A stretch of DNA of 42,377 bases from a bacterium. GTDB taxonomy: Bacteria > SZUA-79 > Acidulodesulfobacterales > Acidulodesulfobacteraceae. A model generated the notes under the pieces. It ran no database searches. It saw nothing but the letters and a program-made list of their open reading frames with translations, and was not told the origin of the DNA. Below are positions 6,695 through 39,105 of the stretch, in pieces; position 1 is the stretch's first letter; each line of letters starts with the position of its first letter. The stretch spans positions 1 through 42,377 of the forward strand of contig JAJYPL010000010.1 of the NCBI GenBank assembly GCA_021795355.1. Reading direction: 5' to 3'. The position numbers and the translations under genes are program-made.

Positions 6695-7030
6695 TTATTC
6701 TACGCTAATCGAAAAATCGGGACATAAATATTCGCAAATATTGCATTTTGTGCATTTAGAAATATCTACAACTTCAGCCACCTCTTTATTCATAACGAGG
6801 ACGCCTTCGGGACAGAATGCAACGCAGATTTCGCATCCTTTGCAGTAATTAACGACTATATCGATTTTTACGTCTTCTTTTTTCCCTTTTCCCGAAACTT
6901 CCTTAATAGTAAGATTATTTTTTGTTTTGACCTCGGTTTCTATGCCTTCGCATACAACATAGTTGGCAGGACTTAACGCAGCCGTATTATTTTCGTTTTT
7001 ATTCGTTTTAATACTTTCTTTTCCGGTCAC
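6695..7030 (-). CDS. korD: 2-oxoglutarate:ferredoxin oxidoreductase, ferredoxin-like delta subunit
   Basis: Electron-transfer subunit with two [4Fe-4S] motifs, CKGCEICVAFCPEG and CTKCNICEYLCPDF, in the C-terminal half of a 111-residue protein. The start is a GTG at 7030, chosen because an AGGAGG lies 7 bases upstream and no ATG in the right place has a comparable site. About 60 residues precede the first cluster; they are polar and low complexity up to about residue 40. It is the first of the four kor genes and follows sucD by 38 bp. Confidence 0.9.
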   Translation of the reverse strand: MTGKESIKTNKNENNTAALSPANYVVCEGIETEVKTKNNLTIKEVSGKGKKEDVKIDIVVNYCKGCEICVAFCPEGVLVMNKEVAEVVDISKCTKCNICEYLCPDFSISVE

Positions 7031-29881: not shown

Positions 29882-30301
29882 TTATACAACAAATATACGC
29901 TTAAACAGTCCTTTCTTTGCAGGTTTTATTACGGGCTTGTAAGATTCAAGGTCGGCTATATCTTCGGATTTTTCCTTTGAGACGATAATCCATGGCGGGG
30001 GCGTAGTTAAAGAACAGCCGCCGCCGGACATTCTCGGATGGTAAATTTTTATTATAGAAGGCTCGTCTTTGGTGTGGACGTAAAACCATCCGCAAATCTT
30101 ATCCAGATTTTTTATTTCGTCCATCCTTTCCTTTAAAAATCCGGCTGCAGTTTCTGCGTCCATTTCGCCCCTTTCGTCGTCGGCTTGCGTATAGACGTAA
30201 TGCCATTGCGAGCCGGAATTTTTTACATCTTCGATTAGCTTTTCCACGTTCTCCCACTGCAAAAGACCCGAAAAAGCGACGGTATCGGCTTTATAAGGCA
30301 T
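29882..30301 (-). CDS. Conserved-looking hypothetical protein, unknown function
   Basis: I do not recognise this 139-residue protein. It is soluble, with no signal or membrane helix, and acidic in the first two thirds. Notable are the aromatic stretch SQWHYVYTQADDERGEMDAE, the GWFYVHTKDEPSIIKIYHPRMSGGGCSLTTPPPW segment (short form RMSGGGCSLTTPPPW) and a basic tail KPAKKGLFKRIFVV. AGGAGAG is well placed before the ATG, which supports a real gene. Its 3' end is duplicated at 28114-28198, so at least two related copies existed here. Confidence 0.6.
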   Translation of the reverse strand: MPYKADTVAFSGLLQWENVEKLIEDVKNSGSQWHYVYTQADDERGEMDAETAAGFLKERMDEIKNLDKICGWFYVHTKDEPSIIKIYHPRMSGGGCSLTTPPPWIIVSKEKSEDIADLESYKPVIKPAKKGLFKRIFVV

Positions 30302-30520: not shown

Positions 30521-31432
30521 ATGAAGATAATGAAAAAAATTAATTTTTTAAAAAAAATAGACGCGTGGCAGTTGGGAATATTCGTCGTAGTAATAAGTTT
30601 ATTTTCGGTAATACTGTCTTTAATTCTTTTGTTCTTGGATTATAAGCATCCTAATTTATGGGAGGCGCGCGGCGAAGTCAGCGCTTCGCTAACTTCTTCC
30701 CTAGCGGTACTTGCCGCCGTTATAGCGATATTTATAGGTTTAAGGGTGCAGTCGAGCGAGCACAAAGCGACGGAAGACATAAAAACCGATTTAATTGAAA
30801 TTAACGGGCTGCTTAATAACTTGATTTCTATTTTTACGGTTATTAAAGCCAATTATAATTCCGAAGCGAAAATTATAAAAAGCTTAGACCTTTTGCCGCT
30901 TAAAGATACTTTAAACAGATTTTTGATTTCTTCGACGTATTTCGGCCTGACTTATTATTTTTATATTAATCAGGAAAAAACGAAATATTTTTTCAGGGTT
31001 TTCGCTCTGGATTTAACCTATATACAATTTTTTTTGAGTATGCAGGGCGAAGGCAGAGATATCAGCAAGATAACTATTCCGGAACATGCGATTGCCGAGG
31101 TGCGCACGGCTTTGAGCGGGCTTAAAGAAAAAGATGTCGAAGAAATAGCGTCTTATATGTCGTCGTCTTTAATAAAATTAATCGAAAAAAACAACGAGAT
31201 AATGAACGAAAACCCGTTAATAAAATTATTTCAGGAATTAATGGAAGAAAAAGATTCCGATAACATTTTTTCGGTAGATTTGGCAAAAGCGGAAAAACTT
31301 ATATCCGGTATAAACAACATCGAACTGAAAAATAATCTGACGGAGATTTTAGATAAAGCAAAAAATAACGACAACGAGTCGAAAATGCTTTTAAGCACGG
31401 TTATAGAAAAATTTTCTCTTTATAATAAATAA
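30521..31432 (+). CDS. Hypothetical two-TM membrane protein
   Basis: A 303-residue protein I cannot assign. Two membrane helices lie near the N-terminus (about residues 17-40, LGIFVVVISLFSVILSLILL, and 60-80, SLAVLAAVIAIFIGL), followed by a long, mostly helical, charged cytosolic part with repeated NN and KAEKLISGI-type segments. There is a second in-frame ATG 9 bases on, and neither has a clear ribosome site. The 219 bp upstream are very AT-rich with no other feature. It is followed after 16 bp by the glucan phosphorylase, which may share its transcript. Confidence 0.65.
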   Translation: MKIMKKINFLKKIDAWQLGIFVVVISLFSVILSLILLFLDYKHPNLWEARGEVSASLTSSLAVLAAVIAIFIGLRVQSSEHKATEDIKTDLIEINGLLNNLISIFTVIKANYNSEAKIIKSLDLLPLKDTLNRFLISSTYFGLTYYFYINQEKTKYFFRVFALDLTYIQFFLSMQGEGRDISKITIPEHAIAEVRTALSGLKEKDVEEIASYMSSSLIKLIEKNNEIMNENPLIKLFQELMEEKDSDNIFSVDLAKAEKLISGINNIELKNNLTEILDKAKNNDNESKMLLSTVIEKFSLYNK

Positions 31433-34019: not shown

Positions 34020-34048
34020 TTGACTATATAAAAAAAATTTTATATACT
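34020..34048 (+). promoter_or_regulatory. Sigma-70-type promoter of the metal-efflux operon
   Basis: TTGACT (34020-34025), a 17-base spacer and TATACT (34043-34048) form the best promoter match in the window. It lies about 115 bases before the Cys-rich gene, with the palindrome at 34075-34092 some 27 bases after the -10 element, a position where a bound repressor would block transcription. Confidence 0.55.
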
Positions 34049-34074
34049 TAAATTATATTATGATAGTATCTTTT

Positions 34075-34092
34075 TTAATCATGCATGATTAA
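34075..34092. promoter_or_regulatory. Perfect 18-bp palindrome, likely operator
   Basis: TTAATCATGCATGATTAA is a perfect palindrome located in the presumed leader of the efflux operon. ArsR-family repressors bind inverted repeats of this size, and an ArsR gene is second in the operon, so autoregulation through this site is likely. That assignment is inference. Confidence 0.5.
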
Positions 34093-34161
34093 ATAATTTT
34101 TGTTTAACGAAAAATTTATTATTTAATTTTTATTAAATTGAATGTAGAAAAGGAGGTATAA

Positions 34162-34512
34162 GTGTCCGGAAACAATATGAATTCCTGCGGATGCGGGTCG
34201 GGAAAAGCTAAAAAAACTACCCCCAGAGAAGCGGTGGTGGATATAAAAAATCTGGAAAACGGCGTGCTTGTTGAGTTAAACGCCGAAGAAGTTTCAAAGA
34301 GCGATATGGAAAAGAGCATAGAAAATTGCAATACCGGAAAATGCGACTGCCTGAATGATTCGCAGAAAGCCAGAATAAAATCTATTTCTTTAAAAGAAGG
34401 AGATTTTGGAAGTCTTTCCGTTGAAATTGAAGGCGATATCGACAAGGAAGAAATAAAACAGGCTATGGAAAAAGCGGCAAAAAACCAGAAAAAAGGTTCC
34501 TGCTGCTGCTAA
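34162..34512 (+). CDS. Small cysteine-rich protein, putative metal/metalloid binder
   Basis: A 116-residue, highly charged protein of no family I recognise. Its eight cysteines are clustered: C9 and C11 (SCGCGSGKAKK), C56, C61 and C63 (CNTGKCDC), and three at the extreme C-terminus (C114-C116, GSCCC). No signal peptide or membrane helix. The start is a GTG preceded by AAAGGAGG, 5 bases away. Cysteine pairs at both ends of a charged linker suggest soft-metal or arsenite binding, perhaps as a chaperone or buffer delivering metal to ArsR or the pump. It is the first gene of the arsR-tolC-hlyD-emrB cluster, 22 bp before arsR. Confidence 0.7.
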   Translation: MSGNNMNSCGCGSGKAKKTTPREAVVDIKNLENGVLVELNAEEVSKSDMEKSIENCNTGKCDCLNDSQKARIKSISLKEGDFGSLSVEIEGDIDKEEIKQAMEKAAKNQKKGSCCC

Positions 34513-34534: not shown

Positions 34535-34876
34535 ATGAAAGAAGCGTTAAAAATTTTAGGAAGCACAGAAGATTTTGAGTCTATAGATATATCTTCAGAT
34601 ATATCTATAGACGGTCTCAGGGATATTTTTTACGCTTTATCGGATAAGATTAGGCTTGAGATTATAAGCCTGTTAATCGATAACGGAGAAATGTGCGTCT
34701 GTAAATTTCAGGAAATTTTTAAAATATCCCAGCCTAATCTTTCTTTTCATCTCGGCATACTTAGAAAATCCGGTCTCGTTAAGACCAGAAGAAAAGGCAC
34801 ATGGATGAACTACAGCCTTAACGGCGAAAACGAAGTTCTTAAAAATTTGATTCCACTAATAAAAAAAGCGTTATAA
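34535..34876 (+). CDS. arsR: ArsR-family metalloregulator
   Basis: Winged-helix repressor of 113 residues. The helix ahead of the recognition helix carries CVC (GEMCVCKFQEIF), the As(III)/Sb(III) site of classical ArsR (consensus ELCVCDL), and the recognition region is ISQPNLSFHLGILRKSGLVKTRRKGTWMNYSL. An N-terminal extension of about 25 residues (LGSTEDFESIDISSDISIDG) precedes the usual start of the fold and is encoded by a large palindrome. Arsenite or antimonite release from the operator is the expected trigger. It lies between the Cys-rich gene and the efflux genes, and probably represses all of them. Confidence 0.88.
   Translation: MKEALKILGSTEDFESIDISSDISIDGLRDIFYALSDKIRLEIISLLIDNGEMCVCKFQEIFKISQPNLSFHLGILRKSGLVKTRRKGTWMNYSLNGENEVLKNLIPLIKKAL
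34579..34612. other. 34-bp near-perfect palindrome inside arsR coding sequence
   Basis: Arms 34579-34594 (GTCTATAGATATATCT) and 34597-34612 are exact inverted copies around a 2-base centre. It encodes residues of the N-terminal extension of ArsR (ESIDISSDISID). It could be an additional operator, an mRNA hairpin limiting arsR translation or message stability, or an insertion scar. The sequence itself does not choose. Confidence 0.7.
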
Positions 34877-34925: not shown

Positions 34926-36419
34926 ATGAAAAAAAATATAATTGCATCCGTTTTTTTATTAATTATTTTTTATATAATAAGCCTAGTATTGCCGCTAAAC
35001 GTTTACGCAAAAACAAACAAAAAAACGTTTTCGTTTGTCGATAAAGGTTCCGTTAAAAACAAGCATAAATATAGCGGCGGCGTTTATATCGGGCAGAAGG
35101 AGGCTCAAAACGGAGTATATACCGTAAACAAGGCCGTCAGGCAGGCGCTGAAAAATAACGATTTAATAAAAAGCGCGGTTCAAAGGGTTAAGGCGGCGCA
35201 GGCAAATTTTAAAGCTATTACTGCTGGCATGCTGCCGAAACTTTCACTTAATTACAATGCGGCGAGGATGGAATACCAGCCTTATCTTCAGACAAAACAT
35301 CAGCCTATACCGACGTTCACCGGCGCGGGTGCAAAAAACGGCTATATGTATTTCCCTCCCCGCATATACATGAATGCAGATACTAATTTTAACTGGAGCC
35401 TCGAAATAACCCAGCCTGTTTTTACCGGCTTTGCGCTTCTCGATAAAAGGGAGCTTGCTAAAATAGGGATTAATATATCGAGAGTCCAGAAGCAGGAAGC
35501 GGTTTTAAACGTTATTGAAGGCGTAAAATTCGCTTATTTTAACGTTTTAAGGGCGCAGGAACAGTTAAAAGTAGCGGAAGAACAGGTAAAATCTTTAAAA
35601 TCCCACGACATGCAGGCGAAACTCCTTTACAAGCAGGGCGTAATTCCTTATAACGACCTGCTGAAATCCGAAGTCGCTCTTGCCGACGCCGTGCAGTATA
35701 AAACATCGTCTAATGCCGCATTAAATATAGCGGTGTCTAATTTCAACACCGTTCTGAATCAAAACATAAACGCAAAAGACGGTTTTAAAAATATTCGCTT
35801 CGTAAGTTTTAAGAGATACGGATTAAGCCCTCTTTTCGTTTACGCCTTAAGACACAGGCCGGGATTAAAAATTTTCAGGTTTAAAATTAAGCAGGAGACG
35901 CTTAAAGAAAAGATTGCTAACAGCAGGTATTATCCTCAGGTGTCGGCTTTTGCCGCATATTCGCAGTCCGGCCAAAACTGGCTTGCGGAAAACAACACCT
36001 TTAATAATCAGGAAAATAAGATAATAGGTTTGAGCGCCACGTGGACGCTGTTTAACTGGTTTAAAACTTCGGATAATTACCAGAAAGAAAAGCATGAAAA
36101 GACTGCTTTAAAATACAGCCTTAAATCTTATATAAACGACGTCAGGCTTGAAGTTAAAAGCGACCTGTTAAATCTTCAAACGGCTTTTAAAAATATTAAA
36201 GCCGCAAAATTGTCGGTCAGGCAGGCGGAAGAAAATCTTAAAATTACAAATTTACAGTATATACAGGAAACTACCACGTCAACCGAGGTTTTAGACGCCG
36301 AAACTTATCTGAAACATGCCGAATTAAACTATTACGATTCGCTTTACGGATACGATATATATTTAGCTAAGCTTCAAAGAGATATAGGAGATATGGGGAG
36401 GAACGTTTATGGAGAATAA
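34926..36419 (+). CDS. TolC-family outer membrane efflux protein
   Basis: Outer-membrane channel of a tripartite exporter, 497 residues. A signal peptide runs to about residue 29 (IIASVFLLIIFYIISLVLPLNVYAKT). The mature part has the duplicated OEP repeat: helices with VNKAVRQALKNNDLIKSAVQRVKAAQANFKAI and, in the second half, LRHRPGLKIFRFKIKQETLKEKIANSRYYPQVSAFAAYSQSG (key part RYYPQVSAFAAYSQSG), ending with LQYIQETTTSTEVLDAETYLKHAELNYYDSLYGYDI. The start is the ATG at 34926; an ATG five bases earlier runs into a stop at once. Its 3' end overlaps the hlyD start by 11 bases. Confidence 0.9.
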   Translation: MKKNIIASVFLLIIFYIISLVLPLNVYAKTNKKTFSFVDKGSVKNKHKYSGGVYIGQKEAQNGVYTVNKAVRQALKNNDLIKSAVQRVKAAQANFKAITAGMLPKLSLNYNAARMEYQPYLQTKHQPIPTFTGAGAKNGYMYFPPRIYMNADTNFNWSLEITQPVFTGFALLDKRELAKIGINISRVQKQEAVLNVIEGVKFAYFNVLRAQEQLKVAEEQVKSLKSHDMQAKLLYKQGVIPYNDLLKSEVALADAVQYKTSSNAALNIAVSNFNTVLNQNINAKDGFKNIRFVSFKRYGLSPLFVYALRHRPGLKIFRFKIKQETLKEKIANSRYYPQVSAFAAYSQSGQNWLAENNTFNNQENKIIGLSATWTLFNWFKTSDNYQKEKHEKTALKYSLKSYINDVRLEVKSDLLNLQTAFKNIKAAKLSVRQAEENLKITNLQYIQETTTSTEVLDAETYLKHAELNYYDSLYGYDIYLAKLQRDIGDMGRNVYGE

Positions 36420-37545
36420 AATGAATGAAAACGAAGTAAATACCGATACCGCAGATAAAGTAGCCGCCGATAAAAATGACGGCAGAAAAGAAAACGGAAA
36501 CGGCAAAAAAAGCAGAATAAAAAAGAAATACGTTTTAATTGCGATAATCGTAGTTTTAGTAATCGGGACTATTTTTGAACTTCATAATATCGAATTTTCA
36601 TTCTCCCACGTTACCACGAGCGACGCTTTCGTTGACGGAAGCAGCGCTATAGTGCCAGTTGCGCCTCAGGTTAAGGGTAAAGTCGTAAAAGTATATATAA
36701 AAGAAAACCAGTTCGTAAAAAAAGGGCAGCCGCTCTTTAAAATAGACCAGTCCGATTATATTCAGGACGTAAACAGGGCGCTTGCCGGTTTTAAAGGCAG
36801 TAAAAAAGAGATAAAACAGATATCTATGTCTATTTTGGTCCAAAACAGCGCTTTATCGAAAGCAAGATACCAGCTTAAAGCAGACGAGGCTTTAGAAAAA
36901 TTAGACCGCCAAAATTATATAAGATATAGAAATCTTTATGAAGGAAAGGCGGCTTCAAAACTTATGTTCGATGAAATGGCCACAAAATACAGAATGGCTT
37001 CTGCAAAAGTCGGCGCGGACGAAGCAAACCTGACCCAGATAGCCGCAAGCATAGCGGAATTAAGAACTGCTTTGAAATCAAGGGCATTTTATGCTAAAAC
37101 GGCACTCGCCGCATATAAAATCGCAAAAATTAATCTTCACAGAACCGTAGTTTATGCGCCGTGCAACGGATACGTAACAAAAAAGAACGTAAATGCAGGA
37201 AGTTACGTTATGCCGGGCATTCCCTACCTTAATGTAGTCAATCTTCGTAAAGTCTGGATAGTGGCTAATTTTAAAGAGTCGGACGTGGACAATATAAAAA
37301 TAGGCGCGCCGGTTATTATAACCGTCGATGCATATCCGGGCGTTACTTTTCACGGAACTGTTTCAAGTTTTCAATCGGGAACGGGTTCGGTCTTCAGTCT
37401 TCTTCCGCCGGAAAATGCGACGGGAAACTATATAAAAGTCGTGCAGAGGGTTCCGGTGAAAATTAATTTAAACAAGGAGTTTTACTCTAAGACGCCTCTG
37501 TATCCCGGATTATCCGTAGAACCGTTCGTGAAAATAGAAAAATAG
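36409..37545 (+). CDS. HlyD/EmrA-family membrane fusion protein
   Basis: Periplasmic adaptor of 378 residues. A charged leader of about 40 residues is followed by one membrane anchor (KYVLIAIIVVLVIGTIFEL, about 40-58). SAIVPVAPQVKGKVVKVYIKENQFVKKGQPLFKID is the biotinyl-lipoyl-like motif, then an alpha-hairpin (about 120-225), and the second lipoyl half KINLHRTVVYAPCNGYVTKKNVNAGSYVMPG. VWIVANFKESDVDNIKIGAPVIITVDAYPG is typical of EmrA. The ATG at 36409 is preferred because GGGGAGG stands before it. It bridges the EmrB-like pump and the TolC-like channel. Confidence 0.92.
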   Translation: MENKMNENEVNTDTADKVAADKNDGRKENGNGKKSRIKKKYVLIAIIVVLVIGTIFELHNIEFSFSHVTTSDAFVDGSSAIVPVAPQVKGKVVKVYIKENQFVKKGQPLFKIDQSDYIQDVNRALAGFKGSKKEIKQISMSILVQNSALSKARYQLKADEALEKLDRQNYIRYRNLYEGKAASKLMFDEMATKYRMASAKVGADEANLTQIAASIAELRTALKSRAFYAKTALAAYKIAKINLHRTVVYAPCNGYVTKKNVNAGSYVMPGIPYLNVVNLRKVWIVANFKESDVDNIKIGAPVIITVDAYPGVTFHGTVSSFQSGTGSVFSLLPPENATGNYIKVVQRVPVKINLNKEFYSKTPLYPGLSVEPFVKIEK

Positions 37546-37557
37546 AAAATAATAACC

Positions 37558-39105
37558 ATGGATTTAAAAAATAAATGGCTGATAGTTTTAGCGGTTATTC
37601 CAAGCACCACGCTTTATAGTATGGATATGAGCGTAGTAAACGTCGCCCTGCCTTATATACAAGGCGCGATGGATGCCTCAATAGAGCAGGTTACGTGGGT
37701 AGTTACGGGCTATATGCTTTCGGGCGTTATTTTAATGCCTTTGGTAAGTTTTTTCAGTTCGCGTTTCGGCAGAAAAAATTACTATTTATCGTCCGTTTTT
37801 TTGTTTACCGTTAGTTCCGCATTGTGCGGACTTTCCTGGAATTTAGACTCCATAATCCTTTTCCGCCTGCTTCAGGGCGTAGGAGGCGGGGCGCTTATAC
37901 CTCTGTCGCAAACCTATCTTGCCGAAAATTTTGAAAAAAAGGAGCAGGGAAAGGCTATGGCGATATTCAGTCTTGCGATAGTTTTAGGTCCTGCAATCGG
38001 TCCTTATATCGGCGGCTGGATAGTAACGAACTATTCTTGGCCGTGGGTATTTTACGTTAATCTTCCTATAGGTCTTTTAAATATTATACTTATTTATTTA
38101 ATAATAGAAGACCATCCTTTAATAAAGAGGATAAAAGGAAACGTAGATTGGCTCGGCATAATTTTTTTAACCGTAGGACTCGGAGCAATGCAGATTGTTT
38201 TAACCGACGGTCAGTATAAAAACTGGTTCTCTTCAAGCTATATAGTGAATTTAACTATTATATCGGCAGCCGCTTCGGTACTTTTCGTTATAACGGAGCT
38301 TATAGTCGAAAATCCTGCAGTTAATATTAAAGTTTTAAAAGATATAAATTTGTCCGCAAATTCCTTTCTTTCCATGGTATTCAGCCTCGGAATATTCGGG
38401 AGCCTCTTTCTTTTGCCCATGTTTTTACAGAAAATAATGGGTTATTCTGCATACGATGCCGGCATTGCTATAATGTCGAGGGGTCTTGCGATGGTTATAA
38501 GCATGCCGCTTACCGGCAGGCTGTTTAATAAAGTAGGTCCTAAAATTTTAGTTTTTATAGGGTTTATTCTATCTATTATATCTTCGATTCAGATTGGTTC
38601 TATGAGTCTTAATATGGGATTTTGGGACGTTTTTTGGCCTCAGTTTACGCAGGGTCTCGGTTTCGGTTTAATTATAGTTTCCCTTATGACATCTTCCTTA
38701 ATTACGCTTGAAAATAAATATAAAATAGACGGCGCCGGTTTGTTTAATTTGATAAGGCAGGTTGCCGGTTCTATCGGTATCGCCGTGCTGGCGACAATGA
38801 TAGATAACAACACCCAGATGGCCCATTCCGTTCTTGCTCAAAACGTGAGCGACAATACGCAGACCATGTTATCTTTAAGGAGAGCCGCTCAAATTACGCA
38901 TTCGTTTGTGTTTTATCCTCCGGCAAAAAAGGTACTTGCCTTAATTAACGGTATGATTACCCAGCAATCTACCATGATTGCTTTTAATTTGGCATTTATA
39001 TTTATGGCGGTATGTTTTGCCGTGTCTATACCCGTTATTTTCCTGCTTAAGGGTTCAAAAAGCGCAAAAGACAAAAACGGCTCTTCCTCTATTACCCTTG
39101 AATGA
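37558..39105 (+). CDS. DHA2-family (EmrB/QacA) drug:proton antiporter
   Basis: Inner-membrane pump of 515 residues with about 14 helices, the DHA2 layout. It opens with DMSVVNVALPYIQGAMDASIEQVTWVVTGYMLS, whose D-M-S-V-V-N-V-A-L-P is the family motif D1, and RLLQGVGGGALIPLSQ and LGPAIGPYIGGWI are the motif C (antiporter) region. DQ/ NNxRQ: FNLIRQVAGSIGIAVL is the late EmrB motif. Together with the preceding HlyD and TolC genes it makes a complete EmrAB-TolC-type system. The ArsR and Cys-rich genes upstream suggest an arsenical or other soft-metal compound as the substrate or inducer. A direct test would be needed to name it. Confidence 0.92.
   Translation: MDLKNKWLIVLAVIPSTTLYSMDMSVVNVALPYIQGAMDASIEQVTWVVTGYMLSGVILMPLVSFFSSRFGRKNYYLSSVFLFTVSSALCGLSWNLDSIILFRLLQGVGGGALIPLSQTYLAENFEKKEQGKAMAIFSLAIVLGPAIGPYIGGWIVTNYSWPWVFYVNLPIGLLNIILIYLIIEDHPLIKRIKGNVDWLGIIFLTVGLGAMQIVLTDGQYKNWFSSSYIVNLTIISAAASVLFVITELIVENPAVNIKVLKDINLSANSFLSMVFSLGIFGSLFLLPMFLQKIMGYSAYDAGIAIMSRGLAMVISMPLTGRLFNKVGPKILVFIGFILSIISSIQIGSMSLNMGFWDVFWPQFTQGLGFGLIIVSLMTSSLITLENKYKIDGAGLFNLIRQVAGSIGIAVLATMIDNNTQMAHSVLAQNVSDNTQTMLSLRRAAQITHSFVFYPPAKKVLALINGMITQQSTMIAFNLAFIFMAVCFAVSIPVIFLLKGSKSAKDKNGSSSITLE

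Follow-up and report, generated by a model that had tools for sequence, protein, structure and literature searches.

What does an unfamiliar Cys-rich protein of 116 residues do at the head of an operon that otherwise encodes an ArsR-family repressor and a TolC-EmrA-EmrB efflux system? The locus lies in a 42,377-nucleotide stretch of DNA from a bacterium of the Acidulodesulfobacteraceae (probably of the Acidulodesulfobacterales, an order of acid mine waters), which was analysed as a whole and is referred to as the window (Table 1). The genes follow the order small gene, arsR, tolC, emrA, and emrB, with gaps of 22, 49, –11, and 12 nt, and are probably read as a single transcript from the small gene through emrB. 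No earlier description of such a Cys protein or of an ArsR-EmrAB operon was found in the literature.

Table 1. Features of the small-gene operon, with the related second locus of genome G006 in the last row (positions refer to the window unless a locus is named).
Feature	Position	Strand	Basis
Promoter TTGACT-17-TATACT	34020..34048	+	Scan; conserved upstream of homologues
Putative ArsR operator TATATAAAAAAAATTTTATATA, 22-bp palindrome	34025..34046	.	Conserved in both genera; arsB-upstream variants in sister genus
Shine-Dalgarno AGGAGG, 5 nt 5' of GTG	34151..34156	+	Sequence; same element in L003
116-aa Cys-rich protein gene	34162..34512	+	Translation, orthologues, alignment, dN/dS, AlphaFold models
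N-terminal C9-G-C11 tail motif	34186..34194	+	Alignment; CRC in one orthologue, CC in sister genus
Core codons, residues 56-63, C56-N-T-G-K-C61-D-C63	34327..34350	+	Invariant columns in 11 homologues; CxTGxC as in ArsD As(III) loop
C-terminal Cys114-116	34501..34509	+	Alignment; homologues with CCC, CC or C
ArsR-family repressor, 22 nt past small gene	34535..34876	+	NF033788 88.6 bits, cut-off 55; CadC among PDB matches
TolC-family outer-membrane efflux protein	34926..36419	+	PF02321 183 bits
EmrA-like periplasmic adaptor	36409..37545	+	TIGR00998 235.7 bits, cut-off 390.8; TIGR01730 above cut-off
EmrB-type DHA2 efflux transporter	37558..39105	+	TIGR00711 414 bits, cut-off 230
Second locus of G006, small-gene remnant and ArsR paralogue	L025:1501-1575, L032:6830-7231	-, -	

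The small protein, its homologues, and its predicted fold

In the translation of the small gene, all Cys positions listed in the preliminary description of this DNA were reproduced, namely residues 9, 11, 56, 61, 63, 114, 115, and 116. Relative to a window mean of 0.88% Cys, eight in 116 residues correspond to a binomial P of ~1e-5, and the protein ranks second in Cys richness among the window ORFs of at least 80 aa, the first being a ferredoxin-like ORF. The latter (window 6695-7030, minus strand; 9 Cys in 111 residues) adjoins 2-oxoacid oxidoreductase genes and reads as a two-cluster ferredoxin. The small gene is real. Its expression had been proposed from the AGGAGG element and the GTG start; that it is a gene is borne out by orthologues in two genera and by dN/dS values of 0.02–0.25 (for the pairs where the ratio was computable), which indicate purifying selection. 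The L003 orthologue has ATG where the small gene of the window has GTG.

The GTDB contig search recovered nine loci with 94–100% identity in metagenome-assembled bins. Within the family-wide set, the small gene was present in 13 of 30 genomes, nine from the same genus (fragments at contig ends in G002 and G009 included), with orthologues at 94–97% identity, and four from a sister genus, with homologues at 55–62%. Two chance matches aside, no homologue was detected in ~360 genomes of other families, and no relative was found among the plasmids and viral contigs searched. Because the genomes of other families were sampled, distant relatives may exist. Weak profile matches in an ABC-transporter ATPase-like protein (L043, E 0.0025) and in a peptidyl-prolyl isomerase-like protein (L044, E 0.003) were taken as chance. 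The conserved feature of the small protein is C56xxxxC61xC63. Among the Cys motifs, only this central C56-NTGK-C61-D-C63 is invariant in the 11 homologues, where it lies inside the block KSDMEKSIE[NS]CNTGKCDCL, whereas the N-terminal CGC is replaced by CC in the sister genus. The stress that the preliminary description had laid on the terminal CCC does not hold, because homologues shorten it to CC or C, and it is therefore not the key feature.

The small protein is unclassified and could be placed in no known family, as had been suspected from its sequence. Both the HMM and the structure searches that had been proposed as a check were run, and neither gave a strong match to any known family. 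There was no match at the curated cut-off in Pfam or NCBIfam, no significant match among PHROGs or PDB sequences, and no Foldseek match with E <0.001 for two AlphaFold models. The models, with a mean pLDDT of 69.8 for the window protein and 77.2 for a sister-genus homologue, both predict the order beta-beta-alpha, beta-beta-alpha with disordered termini. They place CxxxxCxC where the first long helix ends and in the loop behind it, and the C-terminal Cys directly past the last helix. The sequences only hint at an internal duplication of the beta-beta-alpha unit (P of 0.08 for the window protein and 0.0025 for one homologue). The best Pfam match was the HMA domain of CopZ and MerP (PF00403) at residues 81–107, with an E-value of 7e-4 and 20.4 bits, below the 24.8-bit cut-off. 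This match covers model positions 32–61 of 62, i.e., the second half of the domain. However, the small protein has no GMxCxxC and indeed no CxxC, its Cys lie elsewhere, and its modelled double beta-beta-alpha order differs from the beta-alpha-beta-beta-alpha-beta of HMA. The profile comparison with three HMA domains from its own genome gave a Prob of 1.2.

The ArsR repressor, its putative operator, and the efflux genes

The window ArsR meets the cut-off of the ArsR/SmtB winged-helix family, and Cys54-Val-Cys56 are its sole cysteines. It has this CVC pair only, without the three Cys equivalent to residues 32, 34, and 37 of R773 ArsR. An R773-type site is reported to require that third Cys for As(III), two ligands being needed for MAs(III) (PMC11868830), and three options therefore arise for the inducer: MAs(III)-type compounds, a metalloid with a third thiol supplied by glutathione or by the small protein, or another metal. 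Home-made methylarsenicals lost weight as a substrate, because no ArsM scored above the cut-off in the 30 genomes. In every intact locus examined, the small gene stands directly 5' of a CVC ArsR. Genome G006 carries a second arsR-tolC-emrA-emrB locus (L025/L032), in which only the 3' part of the small gene is left, ahead of an ArsR paralogue; this paralogue starts with MSKNNKGCGCG and has an N-terminal CGC in addition to its CAC. For the EmrA-like adaptor, TIGR00998 is the best NCBIfam match, though below its cut-off. Two genes of no known family recur beside the operon in related genomes, one of 139 aa (window 29882-30301, minus strand) and one of 303 aa (window 30521-31432, plus strand), and the 303-aa protein also adjoins emrB in the sister genus.

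The putative operator fills the spacer between –35 and –10 and overlaps the former by 1 nt and the latter by 4 nt. The block TTGACTATATAAAAAWAWTTTTATATA is found with zero mismatches in both genera upstream of the homologues whose promoter lies in the assembly, unlike the coding sequences, which differ between the genera at about one third of sites. A palindrome of this length is in itself not unusual in AT-rich DNA (33 of 500 shuffled sequences reached an equal arm length), and the support for an operator is its conservation and position only. A scan of the 30 genomes with up to 3 mismatches gave few further sites, and the reversed pattern, used as a control, gave 2 matches. Three of the further sites are orthologous and lie upstream of arsB in the sister genus with 0–1 mismatches, and the ArsB encoded there is above the cut-off of TIGR00935 (arsenite/antimonite pump). 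In one sister-genus genome, G027, the arsB palindrome is present (one mismatch) but a window-type ArsR is missing, so another ArsR may bind there. A tolC operator in the sister genus was not distinguishable from the AT-rich background. Between the promoter and the start codon lies a second palindrome, TTTAATCATGCATGATTAAA (window 34074-34093), which is possibly the site of a second regulator; near this position the sister genus carries either GCTTAATCAATTGATTAAGC or a diverged version of it. A contig end in a genome from another genus (L083, G026:C91) carries the operator together with a glgP end that closely matches the one in the window, and may represent a misbinned contig or a recent transfer.

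The small protein, the window-type ArsR (at least 65% identity), and EmrB (at least 87%), the one pump component tested, occur in the same 13 of the 30 genomes and in none of the 17 others. On the TopA tree this pattern needs at least five gains or losses, so it does not reflect one inherited block. The gene arrangement differs between the genera. The sister genus has the small gene and arsR far from tolC-emrAB, which is found ~7 kb from arsB, while the two genes stay adjacent as a pair in both genera. At the sister-genus loci L026-L029, a JAMM protease gene comes after the pair, with DUF134-like and NifX-like genes alongside and ThiS-like, TusA-like, and cysteine-synthase genes nearby.

Comparison with ArsD and other arsenic-related systems

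One known protein that invites comparison with the small protein is the As(III) metallochaperone ArsD. Both are small (~110–120 aa), belong to an ArsR-type operon, and have a three-Cys core with CxTGxC, which reads C12-C13-STGV-C18 in ArsD and C56-NTGK-C61-D-C63 in the small protein; in ArsD, Cys12, Cys13, and Cys18 bind As(III) (PMC4562236). Cys clusters near the C-terminus are also common to R773 ArsD and the small protein. However, the third Cys precedes CxTGxC in ArsD and follows it (residues 56–61) in the small protein, and the motif is located near the N-terminus in the former and behind a helix in the latter. No homology was detectable by hhalign (Prob 0.7), the ArsD model NF033727 did not match the small protein in hmmscan or in the search of its own genome, and no gene like that of ArsA, to which ArsD delivers As(III), was noticed beside the small gene in the window. 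True ArsD is a separate protein, which scored above the cut-off in 15 of the 30 genomes, some of them with the small gene and others lacking it. When 542 distinct ORFs from the fetched loci were compared, a sample biased by loci partly picked for their nearness to ars genes, CxTGxC occurred only in the small-protein family and in ArsD.

The pump downstream of the small gene is of the EmrAB-TolC multidrug kind. In the window it is tied to ArsR and a Cys protein, in place of a drug-sensing regulator of the MprA/EmrR kind. Intracellular As(III) binding under ArsR control has been reported for QueF/QueE of Lysinibacillus (PMC12093948), but these are larger proteins of a que operon with a single key Cys, in contrast to the small protein, which is a dedicated Cys protein without a known family.

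Proposed function and competing explanations

We hypothesize, with slightly better than even confidence, that the small protein is an ArsR-controlled cytosolic buffer or carrier that binds As(III)/Sb(III) with ArsD-like chemistry and an unrelated sequence. In the proposed mechanism, ArsR from the downstream gene would occupy the palindrome in the promoter spacer. Upon binding of the metalloid via Cys54-Val-Cys56, ArsR would leave the palindrome, and the small protein would be made, with the TolC-EmrA-EmrB efflux system coming from the same transcript. In the cytosol, the thiols of the small protein would then bind a trivalent metalloid, for which As(III) and Sb(III) are the likeliest candidates. 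C56, C61, and C63 would form the core site, and the flexible Cys tails at both termini would serve as accessory or exchange ligands. The small protein would buffer the metalloid and transfer it either to ArsR or to an exporter such as ArsB or EmrAB. Metal binding, the identity of the metal, and the release of ArsR are all predicted steps, and the direct hand-over to a pump would be the weakest of them. The pump delivery considered in the preliminary description appears less well founded than a buffer or carrier, because the small gene of the sister genus is unlinked to the pump. Its proposal of a metalloid buffer or metallochaperone, on the other hand, gains circumstantial support. The As(III)/Sb(III) reading is favoured by the invariant Cys, the CxTGxC loop, the adjacency to a CVC ArsR in one operon, the conserved operator and its sister-genus counterpart at arsB, and the co-occurrence with EmrB. 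It is weakened because CVC ArsR proteins also sense Cd/Pb/Zn, because the arsB palindrome of G027 occurs without a window-type ArsR, and because EmrAB pumps are, to our knowledge, not known as arsenite exporters. The lack of the third Cys in the window ArsR, judged by the requirement described for R773 (PMC11868830), weakens it as well.

A thiol buffer or carrier for soft divalent or other metals (Cd, Pb, Zn, Cu, Bi), controlled by a CadC-like ArsR, is an unlikely but serious alternative. The closest solved relatives of the window ArsR include CadC and Lmo1102, the latter of which also has CVC in the alignment. CadC uses N-terminal Cys, which have a counterpart in the N-terminal CGC that the G006 paralogue has in addition to its CAC but are absent from the window ArsR. 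The sharing of the operator with arsB in the sister genus and the resemblance of the core loop to that of ArsD also argue against this alternative.

We consider it improbable that the small protein is a thiol redox or persulfide protein in sulfur trafficking, with ArsR as a persulfide or redox sensor. The window ArsR is far under the cut-offs of the BigR and TsoR models, and the partner common to both genera is the efflux pump EmrB. This explanation draws on the sister-genus pair, which adjoins the JAMM protease gene (desampylase-like, below cut-off) and has TusA-like, ThiS-like, and cysteine-synthase genes in its surroundings. The JAMM gene, however, is located >100 nt downstream and does not come after the pair in the genus of the window.

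The small protein could also be a co-regulator whose main activity would be to bind ArsR as a partner or anti-repressor, metal binding being secondary. The small gene-arsR adjacency kept in both genera and the two Cys of ArsR are consistent with such a role, and so is the decayed small gene of L025 beside an ArsR with its own N-terminal CGC. Nevertheless, this last point rests on one instance and ArsR repressors mostly act alone, so we assign this role a low probability. The same decayed gene, together with the two cysteines of ArsR (Cys54 and Cys56), a number too small for As(III), would fit a two-part metalloid switch, in which the small protein would give ArsR thiols in trans and thereby complete its site or hand over the ion; such a switch is conceivable, but we doubt it to a similar degree. 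A structural Fe-S or Zn site in a protein of unrelated function is highly improbable, because although CxxxxCxC and the N-terminal Cys pair could, judging from the alignment, hold Zn or an Fe-S cluster, neither Pfam nor NCBIfam matched the protein to an Fe-S or zinc-ribbon family, the Cys tails are variable, and the operon is of the ArsR type.

If the As(III)/Sb(III) buffer or carrier is confirmed, it would represent a second, unrelated type of small arsenic/antimony carrier besides ArsD. It would also place a multidrug-type EmrAB-TolC pump under the control of ArsR, with implications for the substrates that such pumps export in metal-stressed cells.
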